The translations under genes and the position numbers were made by a program. Source: a virus. Taken from it: a stretch of 38,539 bases of DNA. Below are positions 5,290 to 31,198 of this stretch, in pieces. The stretch is from IMG/VR virus record IMGVR_UViG_3300014050_001467, positions 1 to 38,539 of that record. One strand, 5' to 3'. The stretch's first letter is position 1. Each line of letters opens with the position of its first letter. A model generated the notes under the pieces. That model searched no databases. It was not told where the DNA came from and worked only from the letters and a program-made list of their open reading frames with translations.

Positions 5290-5479
5290 AAAATCTCTAC
5301 CAAAACCACAATATTATGTTGTGGTGGGCCAAGATGGTTTAGTATTTTCGGGTTTGCAATATGGAGAACCAAAATGGGATGCTAATTGGAACAACGCTAA
5401 ACCTTTAGAACTATCATCAACCCAATATTTATTACGAGGAAACAAATATGAATTAATTAAACAAGAAGAAATTTTATGA
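5279..5479 (+). CDS. Small unknown protein in the deazaguanine cassette, 66 aa
   Basis: The ORF starts inside the last codons of queC (11-nt overlap) and overlaps the thioredoxin start by 4 nt (ATGA), so it is translationally embedded in the cassette. It has a basic start (MRSKKSLPKPQYYVVVGQDG) and beta-strand-like segments with many Tyr and Trp, and no cysteine. I know no function. Its fixed place between queC and thioredoxin argues for a real gene. Confidence 0.6.
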   Translation: MRSKKSLPKPQYYVVVGQDGLVFSGLQYGEPKWDANWNNAKPLELSSTQYLLRGNKYELIKQEEIL

Positions 5480-5727
5480 AACAATTATGGTATTTTAGTG
5501 CCGGATGGTGTTCCGGCTGCAAACAATTAGATCCAGTTATAGACCAAATAAAAAAACAAGGAATCTCAGTCAATAAAATAGATATTGATTACACTCCGGA
5601 TGTAACAACAAAGTATAGAATAGAACTTATCCCTACTGTAATTTTAGTAGAAAACGGGCAAGAAGTTAAACGTTTTACCGGAGCGCGTAGTTTTGAACAA
5701 GTAATGAGTTTTTGCAATGGGAAGTAA
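5476..5727 (+). CDS. Thioredoxin-like protein
   Basis: This 83-aa minimal thioredoxin carries the redox motif WCSGC at 11-15 right after the first strand and the cis-proline loop as LIPTVILVENG. It would reduce disulfides in the cytoplasm; in phages such proteins may serve ribonucleotide reductase or a redox-sensitive enzyme. It is shorter than the usual 105 aa because it lacks the N-terminal strand and helix, as in glutaredoxin-sized phage thioredoxins. It overlaps queD by 11 nt, which suggests it belongs functionally to the cassette, for example by keeping cysteines reduced in QueD or QueE. That link is inference. Confidence 0.88.
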   Translation: MKQLWYFSAGWCSGCKQLDPVIDQIKKQGISVNKIDIDYTPDVTTKYRIELIPTVILVENGQEVKRFTGARSFEQVMSFCNGK

Positions 5728-6256
5728 ATTTCAATCAACAAAATTATTTGACGGGTTTTCTACTGTATTCCGCCAGTGGAGGGCCGAAGGTACTTTATGT
5801 AAATATTTACACGGATATGCTATTAGCTTTAGAGTATGGTTCGAAGGTGAATTAGATGAACGCAATTGGGTTTGGGATTTTGGAGGAATGAAACGTGCCA
5901 AAAACACAATTGACGGCCTGAATCCAAAAGCTTGGATGGACTATATGTTTGATCATACCACTATTATAGCCGAGGATGATCCATATCTAAATCATTTCAA
6001 GCAAATGCACTTTGATGGTATTATTCAACTTCGTCTTTTACCAGCGGTAGGAGCTGAGCAATTTGCTAAATATATTTTTACTAAACTTAATGAATTTACA
6101 TTAACCGAAACCAATAATCGTGTTAGAGTAGCAAAAGTAGAAGTATATGAAAACGAACGCAATTCTGCTACATATGAAGATCCAACCCAAACATTAGTTA
6201 TACCCAAATCAGACAGACCATCTAATTGGTCAGAACCAACATATACCTTATATTAG
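5717..6256 (+). CDS. queD: QueD-like 6-carboxy-tetrahydropterin synthase, altered zinc site
   Basis: This 179-aa protein belongs to the PTPS/QueD family, which converts dihydroneopterin triphosphate to 6-carboxytetrahydropterin. Family landmarks are FSTVFRQW (14-21), the catalytic Cys in TLCKYLHGY (C28), WVWDFGGMK (51-59), FDH (78-80) and a late Glu in VEVYENE. The three zinc His of bacterial QueD (in FxAAH and HGH) align with F18, H32 and Y34, so two of three ligands are missing while Cys and Asp/His of the catalytic set remain. I recall similar FSTVFRQW versions in marine phages, so this is probably a phage subfamily rather than decay. It overlaps the thioredoxin gene by 11 nt. Confidence 0.85.
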   Translation: MGSKFQSTKLFDGFSTVFRQWRAEGTLCKYLHGYAISFRVWFEGELDERNWVWDFGGMKRAKNTIDGLNPKAWMDYMFDHTTIIAEDDPYLNHFKQMHFDGIIQLRLLPAVGAEQFAKYIFTKLNEFTLTETNNRVRVAKVEVYENERNSATYEDPTQTLVIPKSDRPSNWSEPTYTLY

Positions 6257-6278
6257 ATTAATATTAAAAAAATATAAT

Positions 6279-7115
6279 ATGAAATTAAACTTAGTAAAAG
6301 GGGGAATATTCCCTATAAAAGACAATCTTGAAAATGATTCAACAGGATTTAAATACTCAGGAACTTTTCAAGGAGAGGGAAAATTAACAGGCACTGCATG
6401 CCTTTTTATTCGCACATCAGCGTGCAATTTAAGATGTGCTTGGGTTGGGTTAGATGGAAATGGGTCATTATGTGATACTCCCTATTCTAGTCATAATCCT
6501 GAAAAAAATCAAATGGAAGTAGATGATATAATAAGAATAGTACTAGACAATACCCTCTCTCAAAATATTTCCCATATTGTTATTTCAGGGGGAGAACCGA
6601 CTATGCAAACTGAATCTCTAATTGACTTATTAAAGAAGTTAAAAAATAGAGGATATCATACTACTATTGAAACTAACGCAACTTTATTTGACAAATCTAT
6701 TTCTCAATATACTGATTTAGTTTCTATGTCTCCTAAATTATCTTCTTCAACCCCATGGGAAGCCAATTTAAAAAATTCGGGAGTAATATATAAAAAGAAT
6801 TGGGCAGAAAGGCATGAACGAGATCGAATTAATATTGAGGCTATCCAACAATATATTAATGGTTGTAAAGAGTTTGGTAAAGATTTTCAATTAAAGTTTG
6901 TTATTACTACTGATCAAGATATAAAAGAAATTGAAAGTATTTTATCTAAATTAAAAAATTTTGTTCCTTCTGATGTATGTCTAATGCCCGAAGGAGTAGA
7001 TGTTAATACTTTAAATTCAAGAACAGGATGGATTGCGGAACAAGCAGTTATGAGGGGGTGGAGGTTTTGCCCAAGATTGCATATTATGATGTTTGGGAAA
7101 AATAGATATGTGTAA
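6279..7115 (+). CDS. queE: QueE-like 7-carboxy-7-deazaguanine synthase (radical SAM)
   Basis: This 278-aa radical SAM enzyme makes 7-carboxy-7-deazaguanine from 6-carboxytetrahydropterin. It has the QueE entry FQGEG (30-34), the cluster-binding cysteines in RTSACNLRC (C49, C53) and a third, C65, in LCDTPYSS, plus the SAM loop ISGGEP at 102-107. The spacing is CX3C-X11-C, not the CX3CX2C common in radical SAM proteins: about nine extra residues (VGLDGNGSL) lie in the cluster loop. QueE variants with unusual cluster loops are known, so it may well be active. It follows queD by 22 nt and is the last gene before the mgsA promoter. Confidence 0.88.
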   Translation: MKLNLVKGGIFPIKDNLENDSTGFKYSGTFQGEGKLTGTACLFIRTSACNLRCAWVGLDGNGSLCDTPYSSHNPEKNQMEVDDIIRIVLDNTLSQNISHIVISGGEPTMQTESLIDLLKKLKNRGYHTTIETNATLFDKSISQYTDLVSMSPKLSSSTPWEANLKNSGVIYKKNWAERHERDRINIEAIQQYINGCKEFGKDFQLKFVITTDQDIKEIESILSKLKNFVPSDVCLMPEGVDVNTLNSRTGWIAEQAVMRGWRFCPRLHIMMFGKNRYV

Positions 7116-7168: not shown

Positions 7169-7543
7169 ATGCTAAAAATAGCAGTTATAGCACACGATGG
7201 TAAAAAAGCAGACATGGTTGCTTTTATTATGAAAAGGTTAGACTTTTTTAAGAACAACCAAATCATTGCCACCGGAACTACCGGCACCCACATAGAGCAC
7301 GCCGGTATTCAAGTCATTAAAAAGAAATCAGGCCCTTTGGGGGGCGATGCTCAAATAGCAAGTATGATAGCAGAAGGTGAGATAGATGGTGTTGTTTTCT
7401 TTATAGACCCACTTGCTGTTCACCCACACATTGTAGATGTGAATATGTTACTAAGGGTTTGTAATGTTTACAACATACCTCTTGCTACAAATTACGCAAC
7501 AGCTTCCCTGTTAATTGAAGGATTTAAAAATAAAAAGTTATGA
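7169..7543 (+). CDS. mgsA: Methylglyoxal synthase
   Basis: The 124-aa enzyme converts dihydroxyacetone phosphate to methylglyoxal and phosphate. All landmarks are present: VIAHDGKKADM (H9, D10), the phosphate loop TGTTG (36-40), SGPLGGDAQ with the catalytic Asp D60, and HPHIVDVNMLLR with H87 and D90, matching E. coli H98 and D101. It lacks only the short C-terminal extension of cellular forms (about 150 aa). Its own promoter places the ATG 3 nt past the -10 box, suggesting leaderless translation. The stop overlaps the next start by 4 nt. The reaction frees phosphate and bypasses lower glycolysis; why a phage needs it is unclear. MGS-like domains also occur in purH and carB, but those are much larger proteins. 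Confidence 0.9.
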   Translation: MLKIAVIAHDGKKADMVAFIMKRLDFFKNNQIIATGTTGTHIEHAGIQVIKKKSGPLGGDAQIASMIAEGEIDGVVFFIDPLAVHPHIVDVNMLLRVCNVYNIPLATNYATASLLIEGFKNKKL

Positions 7544-11597: not shown

Positions 11598-12302
11598 ATG
11601 CAAGAAATAGAAAACACACGACGCAAACAATATCAAGATATTGAATGCGTACCAATGGGATATGCTAATGGTGTTGCACCTGGTTTCCCATTTACCGACA
11701 GAGAAAAAGATAAAATGATCGAAGAAGCAACCGAAGCATTCGGTCAGTTTCTTGATGCATTAAAATGCGATTGGAGAAACGATCCTAATTCAATGGAAAC
11801 ACCTCGTCGCGTTGCAAAAGCATATGTAAATGATCTATGGAAAGGTAGATATACCCCGTTTACTGAAATTACTTCGTTCCCTTCAGATGGTTACGATGGT
11901 ATTATTATTGAACGTAATATTCAACTTACATCAATGTGCTCACATCACCACCAAACAATTCGTGGAGTAGTACATATTGGTTATGTAGCTGGAAATGAAG
12001 GTAGAGTAATTGGATTATCTAAATTAAACCGAATTGTAGAACATTTTGGACGTAGAGGTGCTATCCAAGAACAACTTACAGCAGCAATTCACCAAGCAGT
12101 AGATAAAGTTTGTGAGCATAATAAAGGTGTAATTGTAACTATAGTTGCTACACACAACTGTGTAAGTTGTAGGGGCGTTAACCACCAAGGAGCTGCTATG
12201 GTAACTACTAAAGCTTCGGGTGTGTTTATGGATAATAATAACCTAGTACGCAAGGAATTTTTTGATTCGCTTAAAATTAATAACGGACATATTACAATTT
12301 AA
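11598..12302 (+). CDS. folE: GTP cyclohydrolase I
   Basis: This 234-aa FolE converts GTP to dihydroneopterin triphosphate, the first step to both folate and 7-deazaguanines. The zinc ligands are kept: SMCSHHH (C114, H117) and HNCVSCRG (C188). The catalytic core also shows VIGLSKLNRIVEHFGRR (137-153) and the QEQLT segment. The first 35 residues are an extra polar extension. Together with QueD, QueE, QueC and DpdA it completes a pathway from GTP to modified DNA. It has its own promoter-like site, and the MazG-like gene follows 5 nt later. Confidence 0.93.
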   Translation: MQEIENTRRKQYQDIECVPMGYANGVAPGFPFTDREKDKMIEEATEAFGQFLDALKCDWRNDPNSMETPRRVAKAYVNDLWKGRYTPFTEITSFPSDGYDGIIIERNIQLTSMCSHHHQTIRGVVHIGYVAGNEGRVIGLSKLNRIVEHFGRRGAIQEQLTAAIHQAVDKVCEHNKGVIVTIVATHNCVSCRGVNHQGAAMVTTKASGVFMDNNNLVRKEFFDSLKINNGHITI

Positions 12303-12307
12303 TATTT

Positions 12308-12817
12308 ATGAAAGACAACAATTACGTACCATTTGTAAGCGAAGTTGAAGAGTTTAACGCTTTAATGGGGAAAAATTGGCAAAACAGAACTACACCTACA
12401 ATTAATCAAGCAGATGCCGAGTTTGTAATAAATTTTATTCAAGAAGAACTTGATGAATTAAAAGAAGCAGTTAAGAATAAAGATATTGTTGAAATATTTG
12501 ATGCTTTGCTTGATATTACTTATGTTGGTTTAGGAAATGGGGCATTAGTATTTGGTTTAAAAGATAAGATATTAGCCGGATATGCCGAAGTTCAAGCCTC
12601 CAATTTATCTAAAATCTGTAAAACTCTTAAAGAGGCTAAAGAAACTGTTAAAATACGTTCTAAAGAACAAGGAGAACCATGCCATTATGAAAAAATAAAC
12701 GATAAATATGTCGTTTATCGTACCTCAGATAATAAGGTAATGAAAAGCCATCTTTACAAAAAACCAGATCTTAAACAATTTCTTACAAAAGAAGAAATAA
12801 ATTTATGTAAAAAATAA
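12308..12817 (+). CDS. MazG-like nucleoside triphosphate pyrophosphohydrolase
   Basis: The 169-aa protein has the all-alpha NTP-PPase pattern: EELDELKEA at 46-54 (E46, E47, E50) followed by EIFDALLDITYVGLG (62-76; D65, D69), the Mg2+-binding EExxE...D...D set. Such enzymes hydrolyse (d)NTPs to monophosphates; phage forms can destroy a nucleotide or act on alarmones. The C-terminal 70 residues are a basic extension (YEKINDKYVVYRTSDNKVMK). It lies between folE and the polymerase and overlaps the polymerase start by 1 nt, so it likely tunes the nucleotide pool. The substrate is not predictable from sequence. Confidence 0.75.
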   Translation: MKDNNYVPFVSEVEEFNALMGKNWQNRTTPTINQADAEFVINFIQEELDELKEAVKNKDIVEIFDALLDITYVGLGNGALVFGLKDKILAGYAEVQASNLSKICKTLKEAKETVKIRSKEQGEPCHYEKINDKYVVYRTSDNKVMKSHLYKKPDLKQFLTKEEINLCKK

Positions 12818-14538
12818 TGAGTTATAAATCGTGCCACGCACAATATGTAAATCCTAATACTTATAAAATTCATTTGTGGGATGACGAAGGTTACAAGTCA
12901 TTCTCTTGGAATTTTTATGCTTATGAGGAATGTGATCCTATAGACGCTGATAGAAATATTAGAGGATTGCGACATGAAACTCTCCGTAAAATAAATAAAT
13001 GGGATAAAGAAAATCCTAAATTACATTTTCACGACATTAAACCCTATCAAAGATTTTTAATTGATAAGTATGGTACTAATGACGAACCTTCAACAACCCA
13101 CCGCGAAATATTTTTTGATATTGAGATTGAAATGGGGGGAGCATTAACTGAAGAATATATTAAAAATGCTCCTAAACCTGTTACCTCTATAGCTTGGTGG
13201 TATAAACAAAAAGACGAATGGGTTATTTTAATTTTAGATTCAAAGGGTGAATTAGAATATACACATGAAGGGAATAAAAAAATAATTCCACTAAAAACAG
13301 AACAAGAATTACTTATGAAGTTTTTAGAATACATTCGTACTATTAACCCCGATATTTTAGTAGGTTATAATAGTGATTATTTTGATATACCCTATCTTTA
13401 TTTTAGAATGTGTAAAATATTTGATGCAGAAATAGCAGGTATGCTTTCACCTATTGGACTTGTTAGAGATGAATCTGAATGGAATGAACACCGCTGGTTA
13501 GATATAGCAGGTTTAGAATCGCTTGATTATATGAAGCTACATAAAAAGTTTAGTTTTAAAGATGAACCATCATATAAACTTGATTTTTTAGGTAAAAAAT
13601 ATGTAAATATAGAAAAAGTTGAGTACGATGGTAGCTTAGATAGATTATTTAAAGAGGATAAAAATAAATTTATTCAATATAACTTTCGTGACGTTGAAAT
13701 CTTAAAAGCACTAGATGAAAAATTTCAATACCTCCCATTAACAAAAAACTTGGCCCATAAAGGTAAAATTAGATACTCAGATGTTTATAAGAATAGTTTT
13801 ATTCACGATGGAGCAATTTCAGCTTATCTACTATCACAAGGTATTATCCCACCTTCACGAGACAAAAATCCTATAACTAAAAAGAATTATGCAGGAGGAT
13901 ATTTATTTTGCCCTAAAGCTGGTTTATACAAATATATGTTTGATGAGGATTTAACTTCGTTGTATCCCTCAATTATAATGTCTTTAAATATTGGTAAGGA
14001 AACACTAGTAGGTAGAATTATTATACCTGATGAAAAAGTTATAGTTGAAAATAAAGAAATATTTAATTGCAGATACGGGCTGAATGATTTAAAACAAATG
14101 GATAGTGAGTTAGTTTTAACTATTCAAAATGCAAAACGTAAAAGCACTCAAATTAAAGTTAAAGATATTATTGATTTAATCGAAAGCGAAAACCTAGCAA
14201 TATCAGCAAATGGAGTAATGTATAGAACTGATTTTGATTCAGTATTGAAAACAATTCTATCAAAATGGTTTGATGAGAGGGTTATTTATAAAAATAAAAT
14301 GAAACAAGCTTATAAAGCAGGAAATAAAGCAGATGGAGAAAAATATCATTTAATGCAACATACTATGAAAATCTTATTAAATTCATTGTATGGTGCTACA
14401 GCTTTGGGTTCATTTAGATACGGAAATGTAGTACTAAGTGAATCTATTACTTTATCAGGTCAACGTATTATTCAAGAATCAGCTTTATTTGCAAACACCC
14501 ATATGAATCAAGTATTAAAAGGAGAAACAACATTATGA
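12817..14538 (+). CDS. 43A: Family-B DNA polymerase, N-terminal part (T4 gp43A-like)
   Basis: The 573 residues carry the 3'-5' exonuclease and most of the polymerase. Exo I is FFDIEIE at 99-105 (D101, E103), Exo II is VGYNSDYFDIPYL near 190-200, and Exo III is YNFRDVEIL near 288-296. Polymerase motif A is DLTSLYPSII near 377-386, and motif B is KILLNSLYGA near 518-527. The frame ends soon after, at MNQVLKGETTL, before the catalytic motif C (DTDS), which lies in a separate gene 1.3 kb downstream. The two parts total 886 aa, close to the 898 of T4 gp43, so nothing essential is missing. Split gp43 of this kind is known in Aeromonas T4-like phages. The stop overlaps the next gene by 4 nt. Confidence 0.95.
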   Translation: MSYKSCHAQYVNPNTYKIHLWDDEGYKSFSWNFYAYEECDPIDADRNIRGLRHETLRKINKWDKENPKLHFHDIKPYQRFLIDKYGTNDEPSTTHREIFFDIEIEMGGALTEEYIKNAPKPVTSIAWWYKQKDEWVILILDSKGELEYTHEGNKKIIPLKTEQELLMKFLEYIRTINPDILVGYNSDYFDIPYLYFRMCKIFDAEIAGMLSPIGLVRDESEWNEHRWLDIAGLESLDYMKLHKKFSFKDEPSYKLDFLGKKYVNIEKVEYDGSLDRLFKEDKNKFIQYNFRDVEILKALDEKFQYLPLTKNLAHKGKIRYSDVYKNSFIHDGAISAYLLSQGIIPPSRDKNPITKKNYAGGYLFCPKAGLYKYMFDEDLTSLYPSIIMSLNIGKETLVGRIIIPDEKVIVENKEIFNCRYGLNDLKQMDSELVLTIQNAKRKSTQIKVKDIIDLIESENLAISANGVMYRTDFDSVLKTILSKWFDERVIYKNKMKQAYKAGNKADGEKYHLMQHTMKILLNSLYGATALGSFRYGNVVLSESITLSGQRIIQESALFANTHMNQVLKGETTL

Positions 14539-14834
14539 TAGCAAAACAATCAATTAGAAGTGGAACTACTATTTACTGCAATGGTAAAAAAGTAGATAAA
14601 GACGAAGTTATTAGTTTAACTAGTGACTTTTCGGAACGTCAAGAAAACTTATTTAGAAAAATGTTAACCCAAGGTGGAACCCTTACTATTAAAGGTATGA
14701 TATTTGAAATATCAGTAGTTGAGCCTTTATACGATAGTAAAGGTGACATTGCAACTTCATATGTAAGCCCGTTTAAAAATTGTGACGACGAATATTATGA
14801 GGAAGAAAATAACGAAACCGAAGAGAACGATTGA
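14535..14834 (+). CDS. Unknown protein inside the split polymerase locus, 99 aa
   Basis: The start overlaps the gp43A stop (ATGA), so it is translationally coupled to the polymerase. The first 80 residues look like a small beta-rich fold (GTTIYCNGKKVDKDEVISL; GGTLTIKGMIFEISVVEP), and the last 20 are almost all acidic or Asn (YYEEENNETEEND). No family is recognised. A similar acidic tail is common in small phage DNA-mimic or clamp-binding proteins, but there is no direct evidence for that here. Confidence 0.6.
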   Translation: MIAKQSIRSGTTIYCNGKKVDKDEVISLTSDFSERQENLFRKMLTQGGTLTIKGMIFEISVVEPLYDSKGDIATSYVSPFKNCDDEYYEEENNETEEND

Positions 14835-15036
14835 TTTACACGGAATCCCCCACTCTAATGTAAAACAAGTATTAGAGGATTTTTACCTATGGAAAGGTAA
14901 AGGAATAGAAGAATCTGTTATTATAACAGGAAAATCAACAGAAATGCAAAAATTAGTATTTGAATTTTTAGATGCATACGATTTTAAGTATATTGTGTGG
15001 GGTGATAATCCAGGCCAAATAAATGTAACATTATAA
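14797..15036 (+). CDS. Smr-domain protein (small MutS-related)
   Basis: From the ATG at 14797 the product has 79 aa; a GTG at 14782 would add five. It carries the Smr landmarks in order: IDLHG near the start, then a helix, VIITGKS, and the final strand GQINVTL. Stand-alone Smr domains bind or nick branched DNA or RNA; the LDLHG-type motif supplies the catalytic Asp and His. It overlaps the preceding gene by 38 nt, so the acidic tail of that gene and the basic start of this one are read from the same DNA. Its place within the split polymerase suggests a replication or repair role, or simply cargo. Confidence 0.78.
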   Translation: MRKKITKPKRTIDLHGIPHSNVKQVLEDFYLWKGKGIEESVIITGKSTEMQKLVFEFLDAYDFKYIVWGDNPGQINVTL

Positions 15037-15098
15037 TTAACTTTTTACAAATAAATTTATTTTTATAATATTTATAATTGATATCGATATTAACTATT

Positions 15099-15818
15099 AT
15101 GAAAAGAAGAATTGATTTAAGAAAATGGAGTAAAGATGGGTCCCAACGTAGGTGCAACATATGTGCTAAATTTTTTGATTTAAAAGAATTAAATGCAAAT
15201 AATAAATGTAAACCTTGTAATACTAAGGCAAAACAAGCTTGGGTAAATGGAACTACTAAAGAATTTAATTTAATTACAAAACAAACCCACCAAAAACTAA
15301 CACAACAGTATTTTGAAGAAAAAATTAAAAAATGTAATACTTGTTTTAATATTAAATCTTTTGAAGAGTTTTATCCTTCTTTTACTTCTTGGGATAAACT
15401 ACAAAATAAATGTAAAAATTGTACTCAAGAATATAATAATTTAAATAATCCCTATTCTAAAGAAAGTAATAGGATAACTAGAAGAAATTCTCAAAAAAAA
15501 CGTTACCATAACGATATAGAATTTAGAATATTATTAAATACTCGAAATCGTATTAATAAAGCACTTAAATGTAAAAAAAATAATTCAACCATTAAAATTT
15601 TAGGTTGTTCTATTAAATATTATATATTATATTTAGAAAAACAATTTGATGAAAACATGTCATGGGGGAATTATGGAATATATTGGGAAATAGATCATAA
15701 AAAACCATGTGCGTCTTTTGATTTAACCAAATTAGAAGAACAACAAAAATGTTTCCATTATACTAATACTCAACCTTTATCTATAATCGAAAACCAAAAA
15801 AAAGGAAGTAAAATATGA
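15099..15818 (+). CDS. HNH homing endonuclease between the polymerase halves
   Basis: I choose the ATG at 15099 (239 aa); a TTG at 15078 is in frame but unlikely. Two Cys4 zinc-finger-like units come first (CNIC...CKPC and CNTC...CKNC), then a basic linker, then an HNH core with WEIDHKKPCASFDL and CFHYTNTQPLSIIENQKKG at the C-terminus. This is the type of free-standing endonuclease that invades T4-like genomes and cuts alleles lacking it. Its TGA overlaps the gp43B start (ATGA), so the second polymerase half is translated directly behind it. The upstream gap carries AACTTTTTA and ATATTTATAAT, also found before the other two intact endonuclease genes. Confidence 0.88.
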   Translation: MKRRIDLRKWSKDGSQRRCNICAKFFDLKELNANNKCKPCNTKAKQAWVNGTTKEFNLITKQTHQKLTQQYFEEKIKKCNTCFNIKSFEEFYPSFTSWDKLQNKCKNCTQEYNNLNNPYSKESNRITRRNSQKKRYHNDIEFRILLNTRNRINKALKCKKNNSTIKILGCSIKYYILYLEKQFDENMSWGNYGIYWEIDHKKPCASFDLTKLEEQQKCFHYTNTQPLSIIENQKKGSKI

Positions 15819-16756
15819 TTAATCTTGAATCTTGCCCATTACATATAATAGGAGATTCCCTTAATAAGAATTTTGTAGCTTATATAGATACCGACTCAGT
15901 TTATATAGATGCCGAACCTCTACTTAAACATTTATATCCTAACTTTAATGAAATGGATGAAGATGAAAAAGATACTAAATTAGAGGAAATAGCACTTAAA
16001 TATCAAGATTTAATTACGAATCACTATACCCAAATGTCTACGGATGTATTTAACGTTCCTATACATCGATTCGAAATGAAAACTGAATGTATAATCCGTT
16101 CAGCATATTTTAGAGCCACTAGAAGATACGCTCAGTGGATTACTAAAAAGGAAGGTGTAGTTAAAAACGAATTAGATATTAAAGGATTAGAGTTTATGAA
16201 AGCTAATTTTCCTCCTATATTTGGAAAGTTTTTTAATTCAATTCTAGAAAAAACACTTAAAGGAGCGAGCCAAAATGAAATCGATGATTTGGTTCTTAAA
16301 TTTAGAGAACATATAATGTCTAAAGATGTTGATATTGCTATATTAGGTAACCCTACAGCTGTAAAAACATTAGACGATTATGTAGTTAAAGATAGAGGTA
16401 AACCCGTTTTATCTTCGATGTTTACCGCTATCGCTCCTAAAGCACCCGCTCCCGTTAAAGCTGCTATTAGATATAATGATTTATTAACCTTTTGGAAATT
16501 AGATAAACAACACTCAAGAATAGTTCAAGGTGATAAAATTAAATGGATTTACTTAAAAGATAATCCCTATAGAATTGATGCACTTGCGTTTTTAGACTTT
16601 GATATGCCCGAAAAGATACTTACATTATTGAATCAATACGCTGATAAACACAAATCATTTGAATCTATATTAGAAAGTAAACTTGAAGGATTTTATAGTG
16701 ATATGGGATGGTCATTGAATCTTAACCCTTACCGAAACATGTTTTTTGAATTTTAA
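15815..16756 (+). CDS. 43B: Family-B DNA polymerase, C-terminal part (T4 gp43B-like)
   Basis: The 313 residues start 20 residues before motif C, VAYIDTDSVYID (D25 and D27 are the catalytic carboxylates), and run through the palm and thumb to the natural C-terminus. The final NMFFEF resembles the hydrophobic clamp-binding tail of T4 gp43 (LDFLFG), fitting the sliding-clamp gene that follows 2 nt later. It must associate with gp43A to make an active enzyme. There is no frameshift between the parts; they are separated by three genes. The start is coupled to the HNH gene by a 4-nt overlap. Confidence 0.94.
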   Translation: MINLESCPLHIIGDSLNKNFVAYIDTDSVYIDAEPLLKHLYPNFNEMDEDEKDTKLEEIALKYQDLITNHYTQMSTDVFNVPIHRFEMKTECIIRSAYFRATRRYAQWITKKEGVVKNELDIKGLEFMKANFPPIFGKFFNSILEKTLKGASQNEIDDLVLKFREHIMSKDVDIAILGNPTAVKTLDDYVVKDRGKPVLSSMFTAIAPKAPAPVKAAIRYNDLLTFWKLDKQHSRIVQGDKIKWIYLKDNPYRIDALAFLDFDMPEKILTLLNQYADKHKSFESILESKLEGFYSDMGWSLNLNPYRNMFFEF

Positions 16757-17486: not shown

Positions 17487-17517
17487 TTGGATATTTTCCA
17501 TTTATTTCGTATATTTA
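17487..17517 (+). promoter_or_regulatory. Promoter candidate TTGGA-N18-TATATTTA before the hsp20 leader
   Basis: TTGGA at 17487-17491 and TATATTTA at 17510-17517 with an 18-nt spacer start 3 nt after the clamp gene stop. It should drive the short leader ORF, hsp20 and perhaps the groES-groEL run. The box ends 4 nt before an ATG, close to the 3 nt seen at mgsA. Confidence 0.65.
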
Positions 17518-17521
17518 TAAC

Positions 17522-17593
17522 ATGAGCAACTTAAGGGCGCTTGCCAAAAAATTAATGTTTAACCCGCTGATCTTCGGACAGCACAAAATTTAA
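17522..17593 (+). CDS. Leader ORF of 23 aa upstream of hsp20 (or structured leader RNA)
   Basis: An ATG 4 nt after the promoter box opens a 23-codon frame (MSNLRALAKKLMFNPL...). The codons end mostly in G or C (GCG, GCC, CCG, CTG, ATC, TTC, CAG, CAC), unlike the A/T-ending codons of all neighbours. The stretch also contains GCTGATCTTCGGACAGC, a small hairpin with a UUCG tetraloop, and one arm of the inverted repeat that encloses hsp20. It may be a leaderless peptide, a regulatory RNA leader, or both. Confidence 0.4.
   Translation: MSNLRALAKKLMFNPLIFGQHKI
17526..17540. repeat. Left arm of 15-nt inverted repeat around hsp20
   Basis: GCAACTTAAGGGCGC; its perfect reverse complement lies at 18026-18040, 485 nt downstream. 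The arms do not extend beyond 15 nt. Nine of 15 bases are G or C-rich in a very AT-rich setting, so chance is unlikely. Confidence 0.8.
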
Positions 17594-17599
17594 TGTGAT

Positions 17600-18019
17600 A
17601 TGAGTACACTATTTTTCGAGAGGAATACCTCACCATTTGATCTCTTATTTAGAGATTTCTTCAAGTCTGAACTAGACTTTCAACCGGCAGCAAATGCCAA
17701 AATTACCCACCCTGTAGATATTTTTGAAACCAAACACGGACTTCACTTTGAAGTAGCGTGTACTGGTCTTTCTAAAGAAGATATTGAATTAAATATTGAA
17801 GGGGATATCCTTAAAATTTCTTATAATAAAGAAACTGGAGAATATGCTGAACGCAGTTATATCTATAAAGGTATAGCTAAACGTTCATTCAATCTAGGTT
17901 ATAAAATCGCTTCTAAATTTGATCTATCTAAAGCAGAAGCAATAATGGAAAACGGATTGTTAGCAATTCGAATCCCATTTGCTGAAGAAGCTAAACCAAA
18001 AGTTCTAAAAATAAAATAA
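17600..18019 (+). CDS. Small heat-shock protein (Hsp20/alpha-crystallin)
   Basis: The 139-aa protein has an N-terminal arm (about 1-35), an alpha-crystallin domain (about 38-130) with THPVDIFETKHGLHFEV, the hallmark late strand NGLLAIRIPF, and a C-terminal VLKIK that fits the I-x-I/V motif used for oligomer assembly. It holds unfolding proteins without ATP. Hsp20 genes occur in marine T4-like phages, where they may help virion proteins. Here it heads a chaperone group with groES and groEL and is enclosed by a perfect 15-nt inverted repeat. Its codons are slightly richer in C than those of its neighbours in the first third. Confidence 0.93.
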   Translation: MSTLFFERNTSPFDLLFRDFFKSELDFQPAANAKITHPVDIFETKHGLHFEVACTGLSKEDIELNIEGDILKISYNKETGEYAERSYIYKGIAKRSFNLGYKIASKFDLSKAEAIMENGLLAIRIPFAEEAKPKVLKIK

Positions 18020-18025
18020 TTACCC

Positions 18026-18040
18026 GCGCCCTTAAGTTGC
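18026..18040. repeat. Right arm of 15-nt inverted repeat around hsp20
   Basis: GCGCCCTTAAGTTGC, the exact reverse complement of 17526-17540, starts 6 nt after the hsp20 stop. In an mRNA it could pair with the leader and close the hsp20 message into a loop; no T-run follows, so it is not a simple terminator. Confidence 0.8.
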
Positions 18041-18060
18041 AATTTTAAAAATAAAAAGTT

Positions 18061-18341
18061 ATGGCAAGAAAAAAAGACCAACAGTATACTAAGTATATTA
18101 AAGACCCTGTATTAGAACCCTACTTTATCCAATTAGAAGAAAGTTGTTATACAGTTCACAAAAGTGTTACAGCTGAGAGTAAAAAGGAATATTCACAAAA
18201 AATAGGCCACTATAAATCTCTCCATATAGCATTAAGTAAAATAGCTGAAGATACTGCTAAAAGTAAAAGTTATGATTCAATAAAAGGATTTATGAACGAG
18301 TATGAAACAATTATTAACAATTTAAACCAAGCTTACAACGT

Positions 18342-18345
<4 letters not shown>
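18061..18345 (+). CDS. Hypothetical protein, 94 aa
   Basis: A basic, probably all-helical protein (ARKKDQQYTKYIKDPVLEPY at the start, then Lys/Glu/Ser-rich helices). No family is recognised. It lies between hsp20 and groES, overlaps the groES start by 4 nt (ATGA), and has AAAAAGTT before the ATG. Its position suggests co-expression with the chaperones. Confidence 0.6.
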
Positions 18346-24972: not shown

Positions 24973-26409
24973 ATGAAAGAAGGTTATATCCCCCAAAATC
25001 AAAGAAAAAAAATCCTATTAATGTGTGATGACATTAGAATGCCATCAGGAATAGGTACAGTAGGTAAAGAATTAATAATGGGCACTTGCCACAGATACAA
25101 TTGGGTAAATGTTGGGGGTGCTATTAACCATCCTGACCAAGGCAAACGTTTTGATTTAAGTCAAGATACAAACCAAAACACAGGTATTGATGATTCAAAT
25201 GTAATTTTATATCCCATAAATGGATATGGTGATCATCAATTAGTAACCCAGTTACTGGAAATTGAAAAACCAGATGCTATATTTTTAATTACTGACCCAA
25301 GATACTGGATTTGGTTATTTCAAATGGAAAATGAAATTAGAAAACATATTCCAATAGTTTACTTAAATATTTGGGACGATTATCCTGCTCCCATGTATAA
25401 TCAAACATTTTATGAATCATGTGATGCTTTATTTGGTATCTCAAAACAAACTGTAAATATTAATAAGCTTGTTTTAGGCGATAAAGTTAAAAACAAAATT
25501 ATAAAATATGTTCCTCACGGATTAAACACTAAAATATTTTTCCCTATTGAAAATAAGGAACAAGATAAAGCATTTGTTGAATTTAGAAATCAAGTGTTTA
25601 ATAATAAAAAGTACGAGTTTGTATTATTTTTTAATTCTAGGAATATTAGACGTAAACAAATTCCTGATGCAATTTTAGCATTTAAACAATTTGTGTCTGG
25701 CCTTAATAAAGAGCAAGCAGATAAATGCGCTATGCTTTTACATACAGCGGCAGTAGATGAAAATGGAACAGATTTAATTGCAGTAATTGAAACATTATGC
25801 CCTGAAATTAAAGATAAGTTCTACATTACAAACAGAATGTTTGGCCCTAATGAAATGAATTATCTGTACAATATGACAGATGCTCAAATTCTATTAACAT
25901 CAAACGAAGGGTGGGGGTTATCGTTAACAGAAGCATTATTAGTAGGTAATCCTATTATAGCTAATGTAACAGGTGGTATGCAAGATCAAATGCGTTTTGA
26001 ATTTGAGGATGGTACTTGGATTGATTTTGATGCTGATTTTCCTTCCAACCATAGGGGAACTTACACAAAGCACGGTGAATGGGCTTTTCCAGTTTACCCA
26101 ACTAATCGTTCAATTCAAGGCTCTCCACTAACCCCCTACATTTTTGATGATAGATGTAATTGGGAAGATGCAGCTGAACAAATTACAAAAGTATATAACT
26201 TAAGTGCCGAAGAACGTAAAGCTAGAGGATTAAAAGGCAGAGAGTGGGCTTTAAGTGATGAAGCAGGATTTACTCAAGAACATCAAGCTAATAGAATTAT
26301 AGAAGGATTAGACACATTGTTTGCTACTTGGAAGCCAAGAGAGCAATACGAATTTATAAATGCTAATCAATACAAAAAACCAGTTTTAAATCACAATTTA
26401 ATATATTAA
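24973..26409 (+). CDS. Glycosyltransferase, GT-B fold (GT4-like)
   Basis: The 478-aa protein starts the glycan cluster. The N-terminal Rossmann half has KILLMCDDIRMPSGIGTVGK with the glycine-rich loop, and the C-terminal half has FFNSRNIRRKQIPDAILAF and the donor motif EGWGLSLTEALLVGNPIIA (about 312-330), the E-x7-E nucleotide-sugar signature of retaining GT4 enzymes. It transfers a sugar from a nucleotide donor; acceptor and donor cannot be read. No membrane segment is present. It is followed 1 nt later by a second GT4-like enzyme. Confidence 0.85.
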   Translation: MKEGYIPQNQRKKILLMCDDIRMPSGIGTVGKELIMGTCHRYNWVNVGGAINHPDQGKRFDLSQDTNQNTGIDDSNVILYPINGYGDHQLVTQLLEIEKPDAIFLITDPRYWIWLFQMENEIRKHIPIVYLNIWDDYPAPMYNQTFYESCDALFGISKQTVNINKLVLGDKVKNKIIKYVPHGLNTKIFFPIENKEQDKAFVEFRNQVFNNKKYEFVLFFNSRNIRRKQIPDAILAFKQFVSGLNKEQADKCAMLLHTAAVDENGTDLIAVIETLCPEIKDKFYITNRMFGPNEMNYLYNMTDAQILLTSNEGWGLSLTEALLVGNPIIANVTGGMQDQMRFEFEDGTWIDFDADFPSNHRGTYTKHGEWAFPVYPTNRSIQGSPLTPYIFDDRCNWEDAAEQITKVYNLSAEERKARGLKGREWALSDEAGFTQEHQANRIIEGLDTLFATWKPREQYEFINANQYKKPVLNHNLIY

Positions 26410-26410
26410 T

Positions 26411-27721
26411 ATGAGTAAAAATACGTTTTATATAAGCTGTCCAATTGATACTTACAGCGGTTACGGTGCACGTTCTAGAGATTTAGTTAAAGCAATTATA
26501 GAAACCGATAAATACGATGTTAAAATTATACCACAACGCTGGGGTGGTACTCCTTGGGGATTTACTAAAAATAACCCTGAATGGGAATTTTTAACTAAAT
26601 ATTTTTATAGACACCCCCAATTGATAGAACAACCTGATATTTGGATGCAAATTACCATTCCAAATGAATTTCAACCAGTTGGTAAATATAATATTGGGGT
26701 AACTGCAGGTATGGAAACTACCCATGTTAGAGGAGAGTGGGTTGAAGGAATAAATAGAATGAATTTAACATTAGTATCATCCAATCATTCTAAACAATCA
26801 TTTCTTAACTCAGTATACCAAAAACAAGATAATGGTCAAATAGTAGGAGAAATTAAAGTAGAAAAGCCAATAGAAGTATTGTTTGAGGGTGTAAATTTAG
26901 ATATTTACAAGTTATTAGAGACGCATACTAAAAACGATTTATTTAAGTCCATAGATTCTATACCTGAATCATTTGCTTATTTATATGTTGGCCATTGGTT
27001 ACAAGGTGATATTGGAGAAGATAGAAAAAATACTGGATTGTTAATTAAAGCTTTTTATGAGACATTTAAAAATAAATCTAATAAACCTGCTTTAATATTA
27101 AAAGCTAGTGGAGCAGGATGTTCTTATGTAGACCGAGAAAATATTTTAAGTAAAATAGAACAAATCAAAAATACAGTAGGTTCTAAAAATTTACCTAATG
27201 TTTATTTATTACATGGTGAATTTAAGGATGAAGAAATGAATGAATTATATAATCATCCTAAAGTAAAAGCTATGGTTAATTTAACTAAGGGTGAAGGTTT
27301 TGGGCGTCCATTGCTTGAATTTACTCAATGTAAAAAACCAATTATAACAACTGCTTGGAGTGGTCATACTGATTTTCTTGACCCTCAAATGTCTATCTTA
27401 TTAGGGGGCCAATTAACTCAGGTTCATCCAAGTGCTGCTAATGACTGGATAATTAGAGAAAGTCAATGGTTTTCACCTGATCATGCTCAAATAGGCCATT
27501 ATTTAAGAGATGTATTTGAAAATTATAAAAAGTATATTGACGGTGCAAAACGTCAAGCTTATAAATGCAAAACTGATTTTAACTGGGATAAAATGAAAGA
27601 AAAAGTAGATCAGTTATTTGAATTTTATATCCCTGAATTGCCCAAAAAAGTTCAATTACAATTACCTAAATTGAAGAAAATTGAATTACCTAAGCTTAAA
27701 AAAATAGAAACAAATGGATAA
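26411..27721 (+). CDS. Glycosyltransferase, GT-B fold (GT4-like), with C-terminal repeat
   Basis: The 436-aa protein has an N-terminal domain with DTYSGYGARSRDLVKAI (acceptor-side loop) and ITVGVTAGMETTHV-like segments, the hinge LVSSNHSKQSFLNSVY, and the donor motif GEGFGRPLLEFTQCKKPIITT (about 293-313). The E-x7-E form marks a retaining GT4 enzyme. The last residues are a repeat of LPKLKKIE. It overlaps the next gene by 8 nt. It is paralogous in plan to its upstream neighbour but clearly diverged. Confidence 0.85.
   Translation: MSKNTFYISCPIDTYSGYGARSRDLVKAIIETDKYDVKIIPQRWGGTPWGFTKNNPEWEFLTKYFYRHPQLIEQPDIWMQITIPNEFQPVGKYNIGVTAGMETTHVRGEWVEGINRMNLTLVSSNHSKQSFLNSVYQKQDNGQIVGEIKVEKPIEVLFEGVNLDIYKLLETHTKNDLFKSIDSIPESFAYLYVGHWLQGDIGEDRKNTGLLIKAFYETFKNKSNKPALILKASGAGCSYVDRENILSKIEQIKNTVGSKNLPNVYLLHGEFKDEEMNELYNHPKVKAMVNLTKGEGFGRPLLEFTQCKKPIITTAWSGHTDFLDPQMSILLGGQLTQVHPSAANDWIIRESQWFSPDHAQIGHYLRDVFENYKKYIDGAKRQAYKCKTDFNWDKMKEKVDQLFEFYIPELPKKVQLQLPKLKKIELPKLKKIETNG
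27662..27709 (+). repeat. Two tandem 24-nt units at the end of the glycosyltransferase
   Basis: Units at 27662-27685 and 27686-27709 each encode LPKLKKIE. They differ at silent positions, so the peptide repeat is under selection. It gives a basic, leucine-spaced amphipathic tail, possibly for membrane contact. Confidence 0.7.
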
Positions 27722-28160
27722 CTTAACTATATGTAATCGTTGTGGTAGTGATGCGTGCTATGTTCAAGAAATAAACGATCAAATTAAATTGTATTATTGC
27801 ATGGGATGTGGATTTCAAGCCAATACTATAATGACTCGAGATTCAGAATTTCTAAAAGAACAAATGGAAATTTTACCTGAATTATATAAAGAACTTATGG
27901 TTGAAGACGAAAATGGAACTATTTGGATGCCCTCAATGGTTAATATACCTTCCCAGGGTATGGTATTTGCAGATGGTACTAATAAAAATAATTGGCAATG
28001 GGCAGCTGTAAAAGCAATTCCAATGCCTGAAGAAGAAAAAGCTAAGTTTAAAGCTAAAGGAAAAGATTATGAATGGAAGATGGATATGGAAACGCTAAAA
28101 CATTATCCTGAACGTGGATATTTAGATGCTCTTTCGTATATTGGCGTATTACCTGAATAA
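27714..28160 (+). CDS. Zinc-ribbon phage protein, unknown function
   Basis: The 148-aa protein opens with CNRCGSDACYVQEI and YYCMGCGFQAN, a CxxC...CxxC zinc ribbon at C8/C11 and C29/C32. The rest has a Trp-rich centre (NNWQWAAVKAIPMPEEE) and an acidic helical tail with YLDALSYIGVLPE. I recall similar proteins in marine T4-like phages near glycosyltransferases; no function is known. It overlaps the preceding gene by 8 nt. Confidence 0.65.
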   Translation: MDNLTICNRCGSDACYVQEINDQIKLYYCMGCGFQANTIMTRDSEFLKEQMEILPELYKELMVEDENGTIWMPSMVNIPSQGMVFADGTNKNNWQWAAVKAIPMPEEEKAKFKAKGKDYEWKMDMETLKHYPERGYLDALSYIGVLPE

Positions 28161-28163
28161 ACT

Positions 28164-28790
28164 ATGAAAATAAGTTACGCTATAACAGTAAAAGATGAAC
28201 TAAATGAATTACAGCGTTTAGTTAATTTTCTTATAGATAAGAAAAGAACCGAAGATGAAATCGTAATTCTATACGATTCAAAAGGGGGGAGTAAAGCTGT
28301 AGAAGAATGGTTAAGAGCCAATTCTGTAGCAAGTCATGAATACAGATGGCATAGTAGAGATTTTGATAATCATTTCGCTGACCACAAAAATTACTTAGGT
28401 AGTTTGTGCACCGGTACTTATATCTTTCAAATAGATGCCGATGAGATACCTTACGAGTATTTAATTGAGGAACTACCTTCTATACTAAGACATAACCCGG
28501 CAGTTGACTTATACGCTGTCCCAAGAGTAAACACAGTAGAAGGTTTAACAGCTCAACATATTCAAAAATGGGGATGGAATGTAAATAAGGACGGGTGGGT
28601 GAACTGGCCTGATTTTCAAACTCGTATTTACAAAAATACCCCTGAAATAAAATGGATAAATAAAGTACATGAAAGGCTTGACGGGCATAAGCAATTTACT
28701 TATCTTCCTATGGAAGAGGATTGGGGATTGTATCACCCTAAAACAATTGAAAGACAAGAAAAACAAAACGATTATTACAATACACTATGA
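28164..28790 (+). CDS. Glycosyltransferase family 2-like (GT-A)
   Basis: The 208-aa protein has the GT-A start YAITVKDELNELQRLVNFL, the metal-binding acidic motif QIDADEIP (DxD form), and the later RIYKN and INKVHERLDG block that in WaaE-like GT2 enzymes holds the catalytic base (HE). It should transfer one sugar using a nucleotide donor and Mg2+/Mn2+. It is short for the family (usually about 250 aa) but carries all core motifs. Its end overlaps the epimerase start by 4 nt (ATGA). Confidence 0.82.
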   Translation: MKISYAITVKDELNELQRLVNFLIDKKRTEDEIVILYDSKGGSKAVEEWLRANSVASHEYRWHSRDFDNHFADHKNYLGSLCTGTYIFQIDADEIPYEYLIEELPSILRHNPAVDLYAVPRVNTVEGLTAQHIQKWGWNVNKDGWVNWPDFQTRIYKNTPEIKWINKVHERLDGHKQFTYLPMEEDWGLYHPKTIERQEKQNDYYNTL

Positions 28791-29824
28791 AAACAGCATT
28801 AGTATTAGGAGGTGGAGGGTTTATAGGAGGCCATCTTGCAAAACGACTTAAAAACGAAGGATTTTGGGTTCGCATTGTTGATATTAAAGAAAAACACGAA
28901 TATTGGAATCATAATGATATTTGTGATGAATACATTTGTGGTGACTTAAGAGACCCAATGTTAGTTAGCAAAATAATGTTTACCCCCAATCAAACTTCTG
29001 AATCTGATAATATAAATTCATTTGACGAAGTATATCAACTTGCAGCTGATATGGGGGGAGCAGGGTATATTTTTACAGGTAATAATGACGCAAATGTAAT
29101 GCATAATTCGGCTTTAATTAATTTAAATGTAGTACACGAAGCTACTAAAAAATCAATAAAACGAATATTCTACAGCTCTTCAGCTTGCATGTACCCAGAA
29201 CATAACCAATTAGATCCTAATAATCCTAATTGTGAAGAATCATCTGCTTATCCTGCTAACCCTGACTCAGAATACGGATGGGAAAAATTATTTAGTGAAC
29301 GTTTATTTTTAGCGTTTAATCGTAACTATGGTTTAAATGTTCGAGTAGCTAGATTTCATAACATATTTGGACCTATGGGTACTTGGACTGGCGGTAAAGA
29401 AAAAGCACCAGCCGCTATGTGTCGTAAAGCAGCTGAAGCGTTAATGGATGATGAAATTGAGGTTTGGGGTGATGGATTACAAACACGCTCATTTCTTTAT
29501 ATAGATGAATGTATTGAGATGATTCTTCGCTTTATGAGACAAGAAACATTTTTAGGACCAGTGAATATTGGCTCAGAAGAAATGGTCACTATTAATCAAT
29601 TAGCTGAAATGGCTATCAAAGCTTCAAATAAAAGAGCTTATGTTAAAAATATAGCTGGTGAAGAATTTAAAGCTAAATATGGTTTTAAATGTCCTGTAGG
29701 TGTTAGAGGAAGAAATTCTGATAACAGATTATATAAAGAAAAAATAGGATGGGAACCAACTCAACCACTTTATGATGGCATAGTTAAAACATTTAAATGG
29801 ATTAATGAACAAACAAATAAATAA
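28787..29824 (+). CDS. GDP-mannose 3,5-epimerase-like sugar-nucleotide epimerase
   Basis: The 345-aa extended short-chain dehydrogenase has VLGGGGFIGGHL (NAD loop), the GME-typical ADMGGAGYIF, the catalytic SSSACMYPE block, DSEYGWEKLFSE (Tyr/Lys pair), ARFHNIFGPMGTW, and GGKEKAPAAMCRKA, which binds the substrate in GDP-mannose 3,5-epimerase. That enzyme makes GDP-L-galactose or GDP-L-gulose from GDP-mannose. The match to this family is better than to plain GalE or Gmd. The product would feed the fucosyl/galactosyl-type transferases nearby; no GDP-mannose-forming gene is in the window, so the host must supply it. Confidence 0.85.
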   Translation: MKTALVLGGGGFIGGHLAKRLKNEGFWVRIVDIKEKHEYWNHNDICDEYICGDLRDPMLVSKIMFTPNQTSESDNINSFDEVYQLAADMGGAGYIFTGNNDANVMHNSALINLNVVHEATKKSIKRIFYSSSACMYPEHNQLDPNNPNCEESSAYPANPDSEYGWEKLFSERLFLAFNRNYGLNVRVARFHNIFGPMGTWTGGKEKAPAAMCRKAAEALMDDEIEVWGDGLQTRSFLYIDECIEMILRFMRQETFLGPVNIGSEEMVTINQLAEMAIKASNKRAYVKNIAGEEFKAKYGFKCPVGVRGRNSDNRLYKEKIGWEPTQPLYDGIVKTFKWINEQTNK

Positions 29825-29827
29825 AAT

Positions 29828-30370
29828 ATGATTATTAAAAGCGATCATGGTTTAAAAAGAAAAGAATTATTTTCTAAACATAAAAGAAACCATAATATAT
29901 TTTTTGAAACTGGAACACACCATGGATTTTCATGTCAAATAGCTCTAGATTTAAAATTCAACAAAATCATATCAGTAGAAATAGAACAAGAGTATTATTT
30001 AGAGTGTTATGATAAATTTGTAGATGAAATAAGTGAAGGTAAAATTCATTTATTTTATGGAGACTCTAATATATGGATGGAAAGAATGCTTAAACTAGTA
30101 AAAGAACCAGCACTATTTTGGTTAGATGGACATCCAGATGGTGTGAGTGGAGACCCATTATGGATTGAACTAGAAGAAATAGCTAAACATCCTATTAAAA
30201 CCCATACCATAATAGTAGATGACATCCCAGTATATTTTAATAAAACAACAGTTGAAGATGCTATACTAAAAATTAATCCTAATTATGTTTTCTTATATGA
30301 AGATGCTCTTAATGAGAGTGATATGAAAACTGTTTACAAAGATTATGATTTAGTAGCTTATATTCCTTAA
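29828..30370 (+). CDS. SAM-dependent methyltransferase-like protein
   Basis: The 180-aa protein fits a class I Rossmann methyltransferase: FFETGTHHGFSCQIAL (SAM loop, motif I), ISVEIEQEYYLECYDK (acidic end of strand 2), LFYGDSNIWMERML, FWLDGHPDG (motif IV-like acidic loop) and IIVDDIPVYF. It resembles small O-methyltransferases in glycan clusters (TylF/FkbM type). It would methylate a sugar. It lacks the usual C-terminal extension and might instead be a non-methyltransferase Rossmann protein. Placement between the epimerase and GT10 supports a sugar substrate. Confidence 0.6.
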   Translation: MIIKSDHGLKRKELFSKHKRNHNIFFETGTHHGFSCQIALDLKFNKIISVEIEQEYYLECYDKFVDEISEGKIHLFYGDSNIWMERMLKLVKEPALFWLDGHPDGVSGDPLWIELEEIAKHPIKTHTIIVDDIPVYFNKTTVEDAILKINPNYVFLYEDALNESDMKTVYKDYDLVAYIP

Positions 30371-30385
30371 TAATTGTAATTAGAT

Positions 30386-31198
30386 ATGAAGATAAAAACC
30401 GCTCATTTTGATAGAAATGTGTTTGAGCAAAAATTTAATTCATTAAAAGATATTGATTTTTCATTATTTGTAGATTGTATTCCTGAATCTCAAGATGAAT
30501 TATCCTCAATAAATGTTATTTCATTCCAAGAACCAAATGAATATTTTGGAATACATGATTGGGTTATTAAAAATAAAGACTTATTCTCATTTATATTAAC
30601 TTGGGATGATAAAGTGATAAATAATTGTGAAAACGCTTTATTTTTACCATTTGGATTAAGTTGGTTCACACCTGATCAATATCTTGAAGATAAAGAAAAA
30701 ACATTTGAAATAGCTCATTTACGAGGTAACCTATTAAAAACTTATGGACATTCTTTAAGATTTGAATTATTAGATAGACAAAATGAGATTAATATACCTA
30801 AAAAGTTTTATGATGTCTATGGTGATAGAAATGATATTAAAAACGCTAAAAAAGGTAAAGAAGAAGTTTTTGGTAATCCAATGTTTGGTGTAGCCATTGA
30901 AAATACTCAACATAATGGATATTTCACTGAGAAAATTATTGATTGTTTTCTTCAAAAAACTATCCCAGTATATTGGGGATGCTCCAATATAAATGATTTT
31001 TTCAACCCAGAAGGAATTATTACTTTCACTAGTGTAGATGATTTAATTCGTAAAGTGAATAAATTAGATAAAAATTATTATATGAGTCGTTTAGATGCTA
31101 TAAATGAAAATTATAACACAGCTATTCAATATATTGATTACCCGCAAAACATCTATAACAAAGTATCAGAAATATTTAAGTTTAATAATCTAATTTAA
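30386..31198 (+). CDS. Alpha-1,3-fucosyltransferase-like (GT10)
   Basis: The 270-aa protein contains the GT10 hallmark FGVAIENTQHNGYFTEKI followed by PVYWGCSNINDFFNP, the GDP-fucose-binding block of alpha-1,3/1,4-fucosyltransferases (residues about 172-210). The N-terminal acceptor domain is short. GT10 enzymes use GDP-L-fucose and invert the anomer. GT10 is rare in phages. A GT11-like enzyme is found later in the same cluster. The GDP-fucose source is not in the window. Its last base overlaps the next start (TAATG). Confidence 0.82.
   Translation: MKIKTAHFDRNVFEQKFNSLKDIDFSLFVDCIPESQDELSSINVISFQEPNEYFGIHDWVIKNKDLFSFILTWDDKVINNCENALFLPFGLSWFTPDQYLEDKEKTFEIAHLRGNLLKTYGHSLRFELLDRQNEINIPKKFYDVYGDRNDIKNAKKGKEEVFGNPMFGVAIENTQHNGYFTEKIIDCFLQKTIPVYWGCSNINDFFNPEGIITFTSVDDLIRKVNKLDKNYYMSRLDAINENYNTAIQYIDYPQNIYNKVSEIFKFNNLI

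Follow-up and report, generated by a model that had tools for sequence, protein, structure and literature searches.

A covarying long-distance RNA helix flanks the hsp20 gene of a virus and its relatives

Why is a small heat-shock gene in a virus bracketed by a perfect inverted repeat? In the window, as we call the whole 38,539-base virus record analyzed here (G000), GCAACTTAAGGGCGC lies at positions 17526-17540 and its exact inverse at 18026-18040, with 15 of 15 positions matched and a spacing of 485 nt. A sequence-only reading of this DNA had described the repeat, its perfection, and the 6-nt distance of the right arm from the hsp20 stop codon exactly as we find them, and its gene assignment is confirmed by PF00011 and phrog_432. 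It had proposed that the repeat closes the mRNA into a loop, serves as a heat-sensitive switch, or marks the ends of a mobile hsp20 cassette. Our preferred answer, to which we assign a probability of about 0.5, is that the two arms are the strands of a helix (P1) in hsp20 mRNA, which would seal the ends of the message in a closed loop, with a hairpin (P2) acting at initiation and the whole unit being moron-like. The features of the locus, in order, are as follows.

~17505..18063, + strand: whole hsp20 transcription unit, moved or lost as a block (identity to L026; absent from L374/L375 and L376/L377)
17505..17520, + strand: promoter-like TTTCGTATATTTATAA, adjoining the left arm on its 5′ side; 5′ edge of the exchanged unit
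17526..17540, + strand: 5′ arm of P1 (perfect complement of 18026-18040; covariation in relatives)
17558..17565, + strand: conserved UUUAACCC directly 5′ of P2 (leader comparison)
17566..17582, + strand: hairpin P2, GCUG-[A]-UC-UUCG-GA-CAGC, with bulged A at 17570 and loop at 17573-17576 (covariation, cmsearch)
17582..17587, + strand: conserved CACAAA directly 3′ of P2, 13-18 nt before the ATG (CAYAAA in 129 of 163 loci)
17600..18019, + strand: hsp20, 139 aa (Pfam PF00011, E 3.5e-12; phrog_432)
18026..18040, + strand: 3′ arm of P1, 6 nt past the hsp20 stop (complementarity, covariation; 12-nt remnant in L374 and L375)

The neighbors of hsp20 in the window are a T4-like sliding clamp (phrog_223), a 94-aa gene, GroES, GroEL, and a clamp loader. 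A TAnnTATA/TAnnTTTA motif is present in 157 of the 163 loci compared, at a median position of 86 nt 5′ of the ATG. We infer that the element at 17505..17520 acts as a promoter and, from this motif, that both arms lie on one mRNA with the 5′ arm at its 5′ end.

The inverted repeat and its counterparts in relatives

The two arms form the sole perfect 15-nt inverted repeat with a span of up to 600 nt in the entire window. Dinucleotide shuffles of the window contain 0.12 perfect 15-nt inverted repeats per window when any composition is allowed, and no 15-nt repeat with at least eight G/C occurs in 150 shuffles. When the 115 nt upstream are scored for complementarity to the 50 nt downstream of each of the 58 ORFs of the window, hsp20 ranks at the top with 34.2, compared with 12.5 ± 2.7 for the rest and 20.6 for the runner-up. 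Because hsp20 stands alone among the 58 ORFs, P1 is not a general trait of the genes of this phage.

As noted before, the left arm lies within a short ATG frame (17522-17593). This leader ORF is not a conserved gene: most relatives lack the frame or have a different one, and the distance from the 5′ arm to the ATG spreads over all three frames.

Relatives were collected from IMG/VR by scans with hsp20 proteins and alignments and by scans with a P2 pattern. They comprise 270 loci with complete flanks, of which 163 are distinct and are used for the P1 statistics; because many relatives are closely related, these locus counts are not counts of independent events. When the flanks are read, nearly every locus presents a complementary arm pair at the same two places, spelled in quite different letters. 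Arms of different relatives read CTTTAGGGAGC, GACCCTAGGGC, TAGCTAGGGCAC, ACGGGCACCCC, CTCGAGAGCG, AGCTGGGGCG, CCTAGGAGGCAG, and AGCAGGGGACC, and that of L384/L385 reads GGTAGGTCTC; in total, the 163 loci hold 104 distinct 5′ core sequences. The mean pairing score with the locus's own 3′ region is 44.1, compared with 22.3 ± 4.1 with shuffled 3′ regions. A GC-weighted score of at least 25 is reached by 95% of the loci with their own 3′ arm, but by only ~8% with an arm taken from a relative whose protein is 40-60% identical. The uninterrupted helix measures 7-20 bp (mean 12.2), and its geometry is near-fixed: the median distances are 55 nt between the 5′ core and the ATG and 8 nt between the stop codon and the 3′ core.

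An independent check starts from a different P2 sequence alone. This sequence leads to 55 contigs, and the readable downstream ORFs are hsp20 in 53 of 53. P1 is present in all 43 distinct complete loci picked in this way, with a minimum score of 22.6 against a shuffled maximum of 18.9. As a comparative result, a covarying long-distance 5′–3′ helix in hsp20 mRNA is near certain, and the end-pairing very likely constitutes a real, previously undescribed RNA control element. The open-access literature that we searched contains nothing on an hsp20 P1/P2 element and no account of RNA thermometers in phage hsp20 genes. Loci with hsp20 but with neither repeat nor compensatory changes were also sought: none is found among close relatives, whereas distant hsp20 genes of cyanophages and pelagiphages are of this kind. 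The P1 scores of cyanophage, pelagiphage, and Pseudomonas phage hsp20 lie inside the shuffled range, with the exception of S-CAM1, which is marginal (22.8 against a shuffled maximum of 22.5).

The mismatches within the arms bear on whether the pairing occurs in RNA or in DNA. Repeats acting as DNA should show G.T and A.C equally often because of strand symmetry, and our mismatch scoring treats G.U and A.C alike. Among isolated interior mismatches, G.U outnumbers A.C by 57 to 19 (3:1, p 1.5e-5); with identical contexts collapsed, the counts are 29 and 13 (p 0.02). The G.U excess, counted over loci that are related, favors pairing of P1 as RNA rather than a role as DNA ends.

P1 is not an intrinsic terminator, as its arms are 485 nt apart and a recognizable terminator follows within 150 nt of the stop codon in only 4 of 163 loci. 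Since few terminators follow the 3′ arm, longer transcripts are plausible, and P1 could be a processing stem like those around ribosomal RNAs, cut by RNase III to free hsp20 mRNA from such a transcript. The helix indeed has its strands on both sides of the gene, often with an internal loop, and the 5′–3′ helix of icaR is an RNase III substrate (PMC3868564). However, uninterrupted P1 helices average only 12 bp, and because the promoter-like motif adjoins the 5′ arm in nearly all loci, no cutting of an upstream transcript would be needed. We therefore regard processing as unlikely.

Three MAG contigs carry both P1 and P2, and two of them bear the label Flavobacteriaceae. The phages appear to be T4-like, with marine or freshwater Bacteroidota as hosts; the MAG labels are a lead to these hosts, not proof.

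The P2 hairpin and the predicted response to heat

P2 is located about 16 nt before the start codon and follows a fixed plan: above a lower stem, an A is bulged out of the 5′ strand, followed by two further base pairs and a loop of about 4 nt. The UUCG-loop hairpin pointed out earlier from the sequence (17566-17582) is real and conserved. Double changes are seen at six of six pairs in 30 chosen sequences, a set pre-selected for pairing. With anchoring on the CAYAAA flank, 41 of 50 distinct leaders fold exactly to the P2 plan, compared with 0.7% of shuffles, and the flank-anchored leaders contain 13 different lower stems.

A covariance model of P2 matches window positions 17560-17588 with E 1.9e-7 (cmsearch). 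One strong copy (E ≤1.3e-4) is present in 12 of 14 other phage records, where further matches are weak and at chance level; G003 yields a weak match only and G006 none, both representing subfamilies with a differing P2. Two exact P2 patterns retrieve 101 contigs across IMG/VR (46 and 55), nearly all with an hsp20-type ORF directly after the hairpin. In the three exceptions (L119, L319, and L336), the downstream ORF is incomplete at the sequence end and its start resembles hsp20. The second-best match to the P2 model within the window, at 30395-30434, close to where the ORF at 30386 begins, scores 17.1 bits with E 0.036 and is probably a chance match.

In partition-function models of the whole mRNA, P1 is formed in 163 of 163 loci. 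Together with the covariation in these loci, this lends strong support, at the level of structure, to the earlier idea that the mRNA is closed into a loop. Modeled access to the start site averages 0.567 with P1 and 0.575 without the 3′ arm over the 163 loci; as removal of the arm hardly alters it, we reject the notion that P1 masks the start site. Of 16 loci tested, 15 are predicted to keep P1 formed up to 65 °C. The exception is L101, in which the chosen arm set is mostly unformed at every temperature modeled.

Because P1 is predicted to last to 65 °C and to leave start-site access unchanged, it is not a simple thermometer, and the heat-sensitive switch once suggested for the repeat is not borne out. 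Nor does P2 rescue the suggestion: its geometry is ROSE-like, yet the window copy holds no Shine-Dalgarno sequence (SD), and melting is predicted for it only at around 60 °C. We consider it very unlikely that heat opens a structure at this locus and so releases hsp20 translation, even though hsp20 is a classic thermometer target, the bulged-purine geometry of P2 resembles that of ROSE elements, and weak ROSE matches occur in cyanophage hsp20 leaders. A related point in its favor is that in an SD-using subfamily (L074, L083, and L095) P2 itself holds the SD and is marginally stable. Rfam searches return no match in the window or the element, and in ten divergent relatives they return no ROSE match and only others that look like chance.

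In the subfamily of L083, L095, L074, L079, and L205, an AGGAG SD lies inside a weak bulged-A hairpin directly 5′ of hsp20. This hairpin is a plausible thermometer.

In cyanophages, pelagiphages, and Pseudomonas phage Callisto, the hsp20 leader is without P1 but contains a covarying bulged-G hairpin, with double changes at seven of seven pairs. Such hairpins are located ~20-70 nt before hsp20 in L310-L314 and L387-L402, and many of these leaders have a second hairpin over the SD. Six weak ROSE matches (ROSE_2/ROSE_3), all below the gathering score and the best with E 0.0099, fall on leaders of five such loci. The bulged-G hairpins are likely ROSE-like thermometers hitherto undescribed in phages. 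The covarying hsp20 element thus far described also connects a small heat-shock gene carried by phages with ROSE-like leaders of other, unrelated phages, for which we find no description in the literature searched. Sequence homology between P2 and the cyanophage hairpins is not supported (best E 0.46 with the P2 model); their geometry alone agrees. The leader of the window may derive from a two-hairpin leader of the cyanophage type, a proposal drawn from shape, since the P2 model misses the cyanophage hairpins.

Exchange and loss of the hsp20 unit

Comparison of the window with L026 reveals ~98.6% identity within the unit and ~50% on either side. The identity begins at the promoter-like element (17505..17520), and the stretch of 95-100% identity spans about 17520 to 18059; the two clamp proteins share only 40% identity. 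Among the best 60 of 97 pairs with near-identical units, this is the one strong case of transfer. In the sister loci L374/L375, the flanks are 88-100% identical, hsp20 and the 5′ arm are gone, and 12 nt of the 3′ arm are left. L376/L377, also without hsp20, retain a CAACT|AGTTG scar from the outer ends of both arms. From these comparisons, phages exchange and lose the hsp20 transcription unit as one block, with breakpoints within ~20 nt of the arms, and the arms decay to remnants once hsp20 is lost. The latter is the outcome of setting genomes with hsp20 against genomes without it, a check that had been proposed for this locus. Carrying both arms and a promoter-like sequence of its own, the unit resembles a moron-like block that would be both inherited and transferred.

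These observations also touch the proposal that the repeat marks the ends of a mobile cassette. The mobile part of it stands, in that distant phages have exchanged the unit and some have lost it; the breakpoints fall at the arms or close to them, and the scar of L376/L377 is a trace. The part in which the arms are terminal inverted repeats recognized at the DNA level is highly improbable. hsp20 alone lies between the arms, with no transposase or integrase inside, no recombinase acting on the arms was found, and nothing in the comparisons indicates that the arms drive the movement. Target duplications are not seen at the empty sites of L374/L375 and L376/L377. The orientation of the unit is constant and its neighbors are mostly the same, hsp20 lying after the clamp gene in 106 of 163 loci. 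Further, the exchanged block extends past the arms to the promoter and the next ATG, the arms are entirely different between clades, and G.U exceeds A.C, which argues for RNA.

Several further observations concern the surroundings of the unit. The collection was scanned for clamp genes with a single clamp protein as query. L378-L380 carry an unrelated ORF of 79-84 aa (MGFKIDKRSAQDRILNQFDRV...) in the place of hsp20 3′ of the clamp gene. The 94-aa gene after hsp20 (18061-18345) has a relative in 107 of 163 loci; its sub-threshold Pfam bromodomain match is probably spurious. A 20-nt sequence at 18044-18063 recurs at 7523-7542, each copy preceding the start codon of a different gene. It is apparently a reused translation-start context, and the exchanged hsp20 unit has its 3′ edge there as well.

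Elsewhere in the window, the gene for a family B DNA polymerase (region 12817-16756) is in two parts, 12817-14538 and 15815-16756. The insertion that splits it includes an endonuclease VII-like ORF (15078-15818), and stop and start codons overlap on both sides. The arrangement may reflect the insertion of a homing endonuclease, an intron, or a gene that is genuinely split. Genes resembling QueC, QueD, QueE, and FolE by eye are located at 4378-7115 and 11598-12302, a likeness that suggests 7-deazaguanine modification of the phage DNA. A long run of co-oriented ORFs at 24973-38520 resembles, again by eye, glycosyltransferases and sugar-nucleotide enzymes.

Proposed closed loop, possible folding switch, and known systems

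The most likely function of P1 is to seal the ends of the mRNA in a closed loop. P1 would form immediately upon transcription of the 3′ arm, burying the 5′ end of the mRNA and its 3′ untranslated region within one helix. With both ends in one helix, the intact hsp20 mRNA would be shielded from end-dependent decay, and the start and stop codons would be kept near each other, allowing repeated translation. P1 would leave the start site open, and P2 would tune or regulate initiation as a structured platform or a protein-binding site.

The main rival, with processing, thermosensing, and DNA ends all less likely, is a folding switch like those of hok and aapA, which we regard as possible but not as the favored reading. 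A local hairpin of the 5′ arm would form first, during transcription of the gene, and would then be invaded by the 3′ arm to give P1, which would switch the translation or the stability of complete relative to incomplete mRNA. In hok and aapA, a 5′ hairpin is likewise replaced by a 5′–3′ long-distance interaction (PMC6733600). The 5′ arm can fold locally in many clades, with stems that are changed yet matching, as in L081 (UGUA-A-CU-UAAG-GG-UACA), L030 (UUGU-A-GC-UAGG-GC-ACAA), and L258 (TAATAC..GTATTA). In the window, a P2-like apical motif, A-CU-UAAG-GG, sits within the 5′ arm (17526..17540), and the general form A-NN-N4-NN is found in 88% of distinct 5′ arms, compared with 31% in shuffles. 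This motif suggests an additional, local role of the arm, one that is not required for simple end-sealing. However, perfect local hairpins are in the minority (8% score at least 18), and the mean z of the local fold is just −0.64, compared with −0.33 for the 3′ region. In addition, P1 has no effect on predicted start-site access, whereas the hok/aapA interaction locks translation off. Rather doubtful, in our view, is a more specific history in which an ancestral ROSE-like leader with two bulged-purine hairpins, of the kind that cyanophage hsp20 retains, was rewired, its first hairpin swapping partners with the strand after the stop codon to give a bistable switch that distinguishes nascent from finished mRNA and thereby senses completeness.

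End-sealing, the preferred role of P1, can be set against several known systems. Like the ROSE families (Rfam RF00435, RF01832, and RF02523), the hsp20 leader belongs to a small heat-shock gene and has hairpins arranged in tandem, in which a purine is bulged out two or three pairs beneath the loop. Unlike ROSE, P2 has a bulged A instead of G, a high predicted melting point, no SD in the window hairpin, and no Rfam match, and hsp20 has a 5′–3′ helix that ROSE is without.

In the coat-protein operator hairpin of MS2/R17, which lies near a start codon, a stem with a bulged A on its 5′ strand is topped by two base pairs and a four-base loop. P2 is like it in shape alone; the loop and flanks differ, and no P2-binding protein is known. 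Morons are independently transcribed gene units in phage genomes. The hsp20 unit is moron-like in being a single gene with its own promoter-like sequence that is exchanged or lost as a block between co-oriented genes. It departs from morons in that a covarying 5′–3′ RNA helix takes the place that a standard terminator hairpin would have.

The closest parallels are mRNAs whose own ends pair. In the type I toxin mRNAs hok and aapA, a long-distance 5′–3′ interaction blocks the ribosome site (PMC6733600). The hsp20 helix shares with them the pairing of the mRNA 5′ end with the 3′ untranslated region and the covariation; a competing 5′ hairpin, clear in a minority of clades, may be a further likeness. 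It differs in that hsp20 is a chaperone gene of T4-like phages, with toxin and antisense RNA absent, in that P1 leaves the ribosome site unhidden in the models, and in that the 3′ arm comes directly past the stop codon. In icaR of Staphylococcus aureus, the 3′ UTR pairs with the Shine-Dalgarno region and translation is blocked (PMC3868564). Here too, the untranslated regions at the two ends of a single mRNA pair with each other, but in icaR the SD region is paired with a long 3′ UTR, whereas the 5′ arm of P1 lies ~55 nt upstream of the ATG, the start is open, and the hsp20 leader of the window has no SD.

Direct 5′–3′ pairing is known for a few bacterial or phage mRNAs, most of them from toxin genes. 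The hsp20 helix adds a covarying case in a chaperone gene, on well over 100 viral contigs and with near-fixed start and stop geometry. Its relatives provide a natural series of rewritten helices, with which the effect of loop closure on the protection and translation of a bacterial mRNA can be tested.
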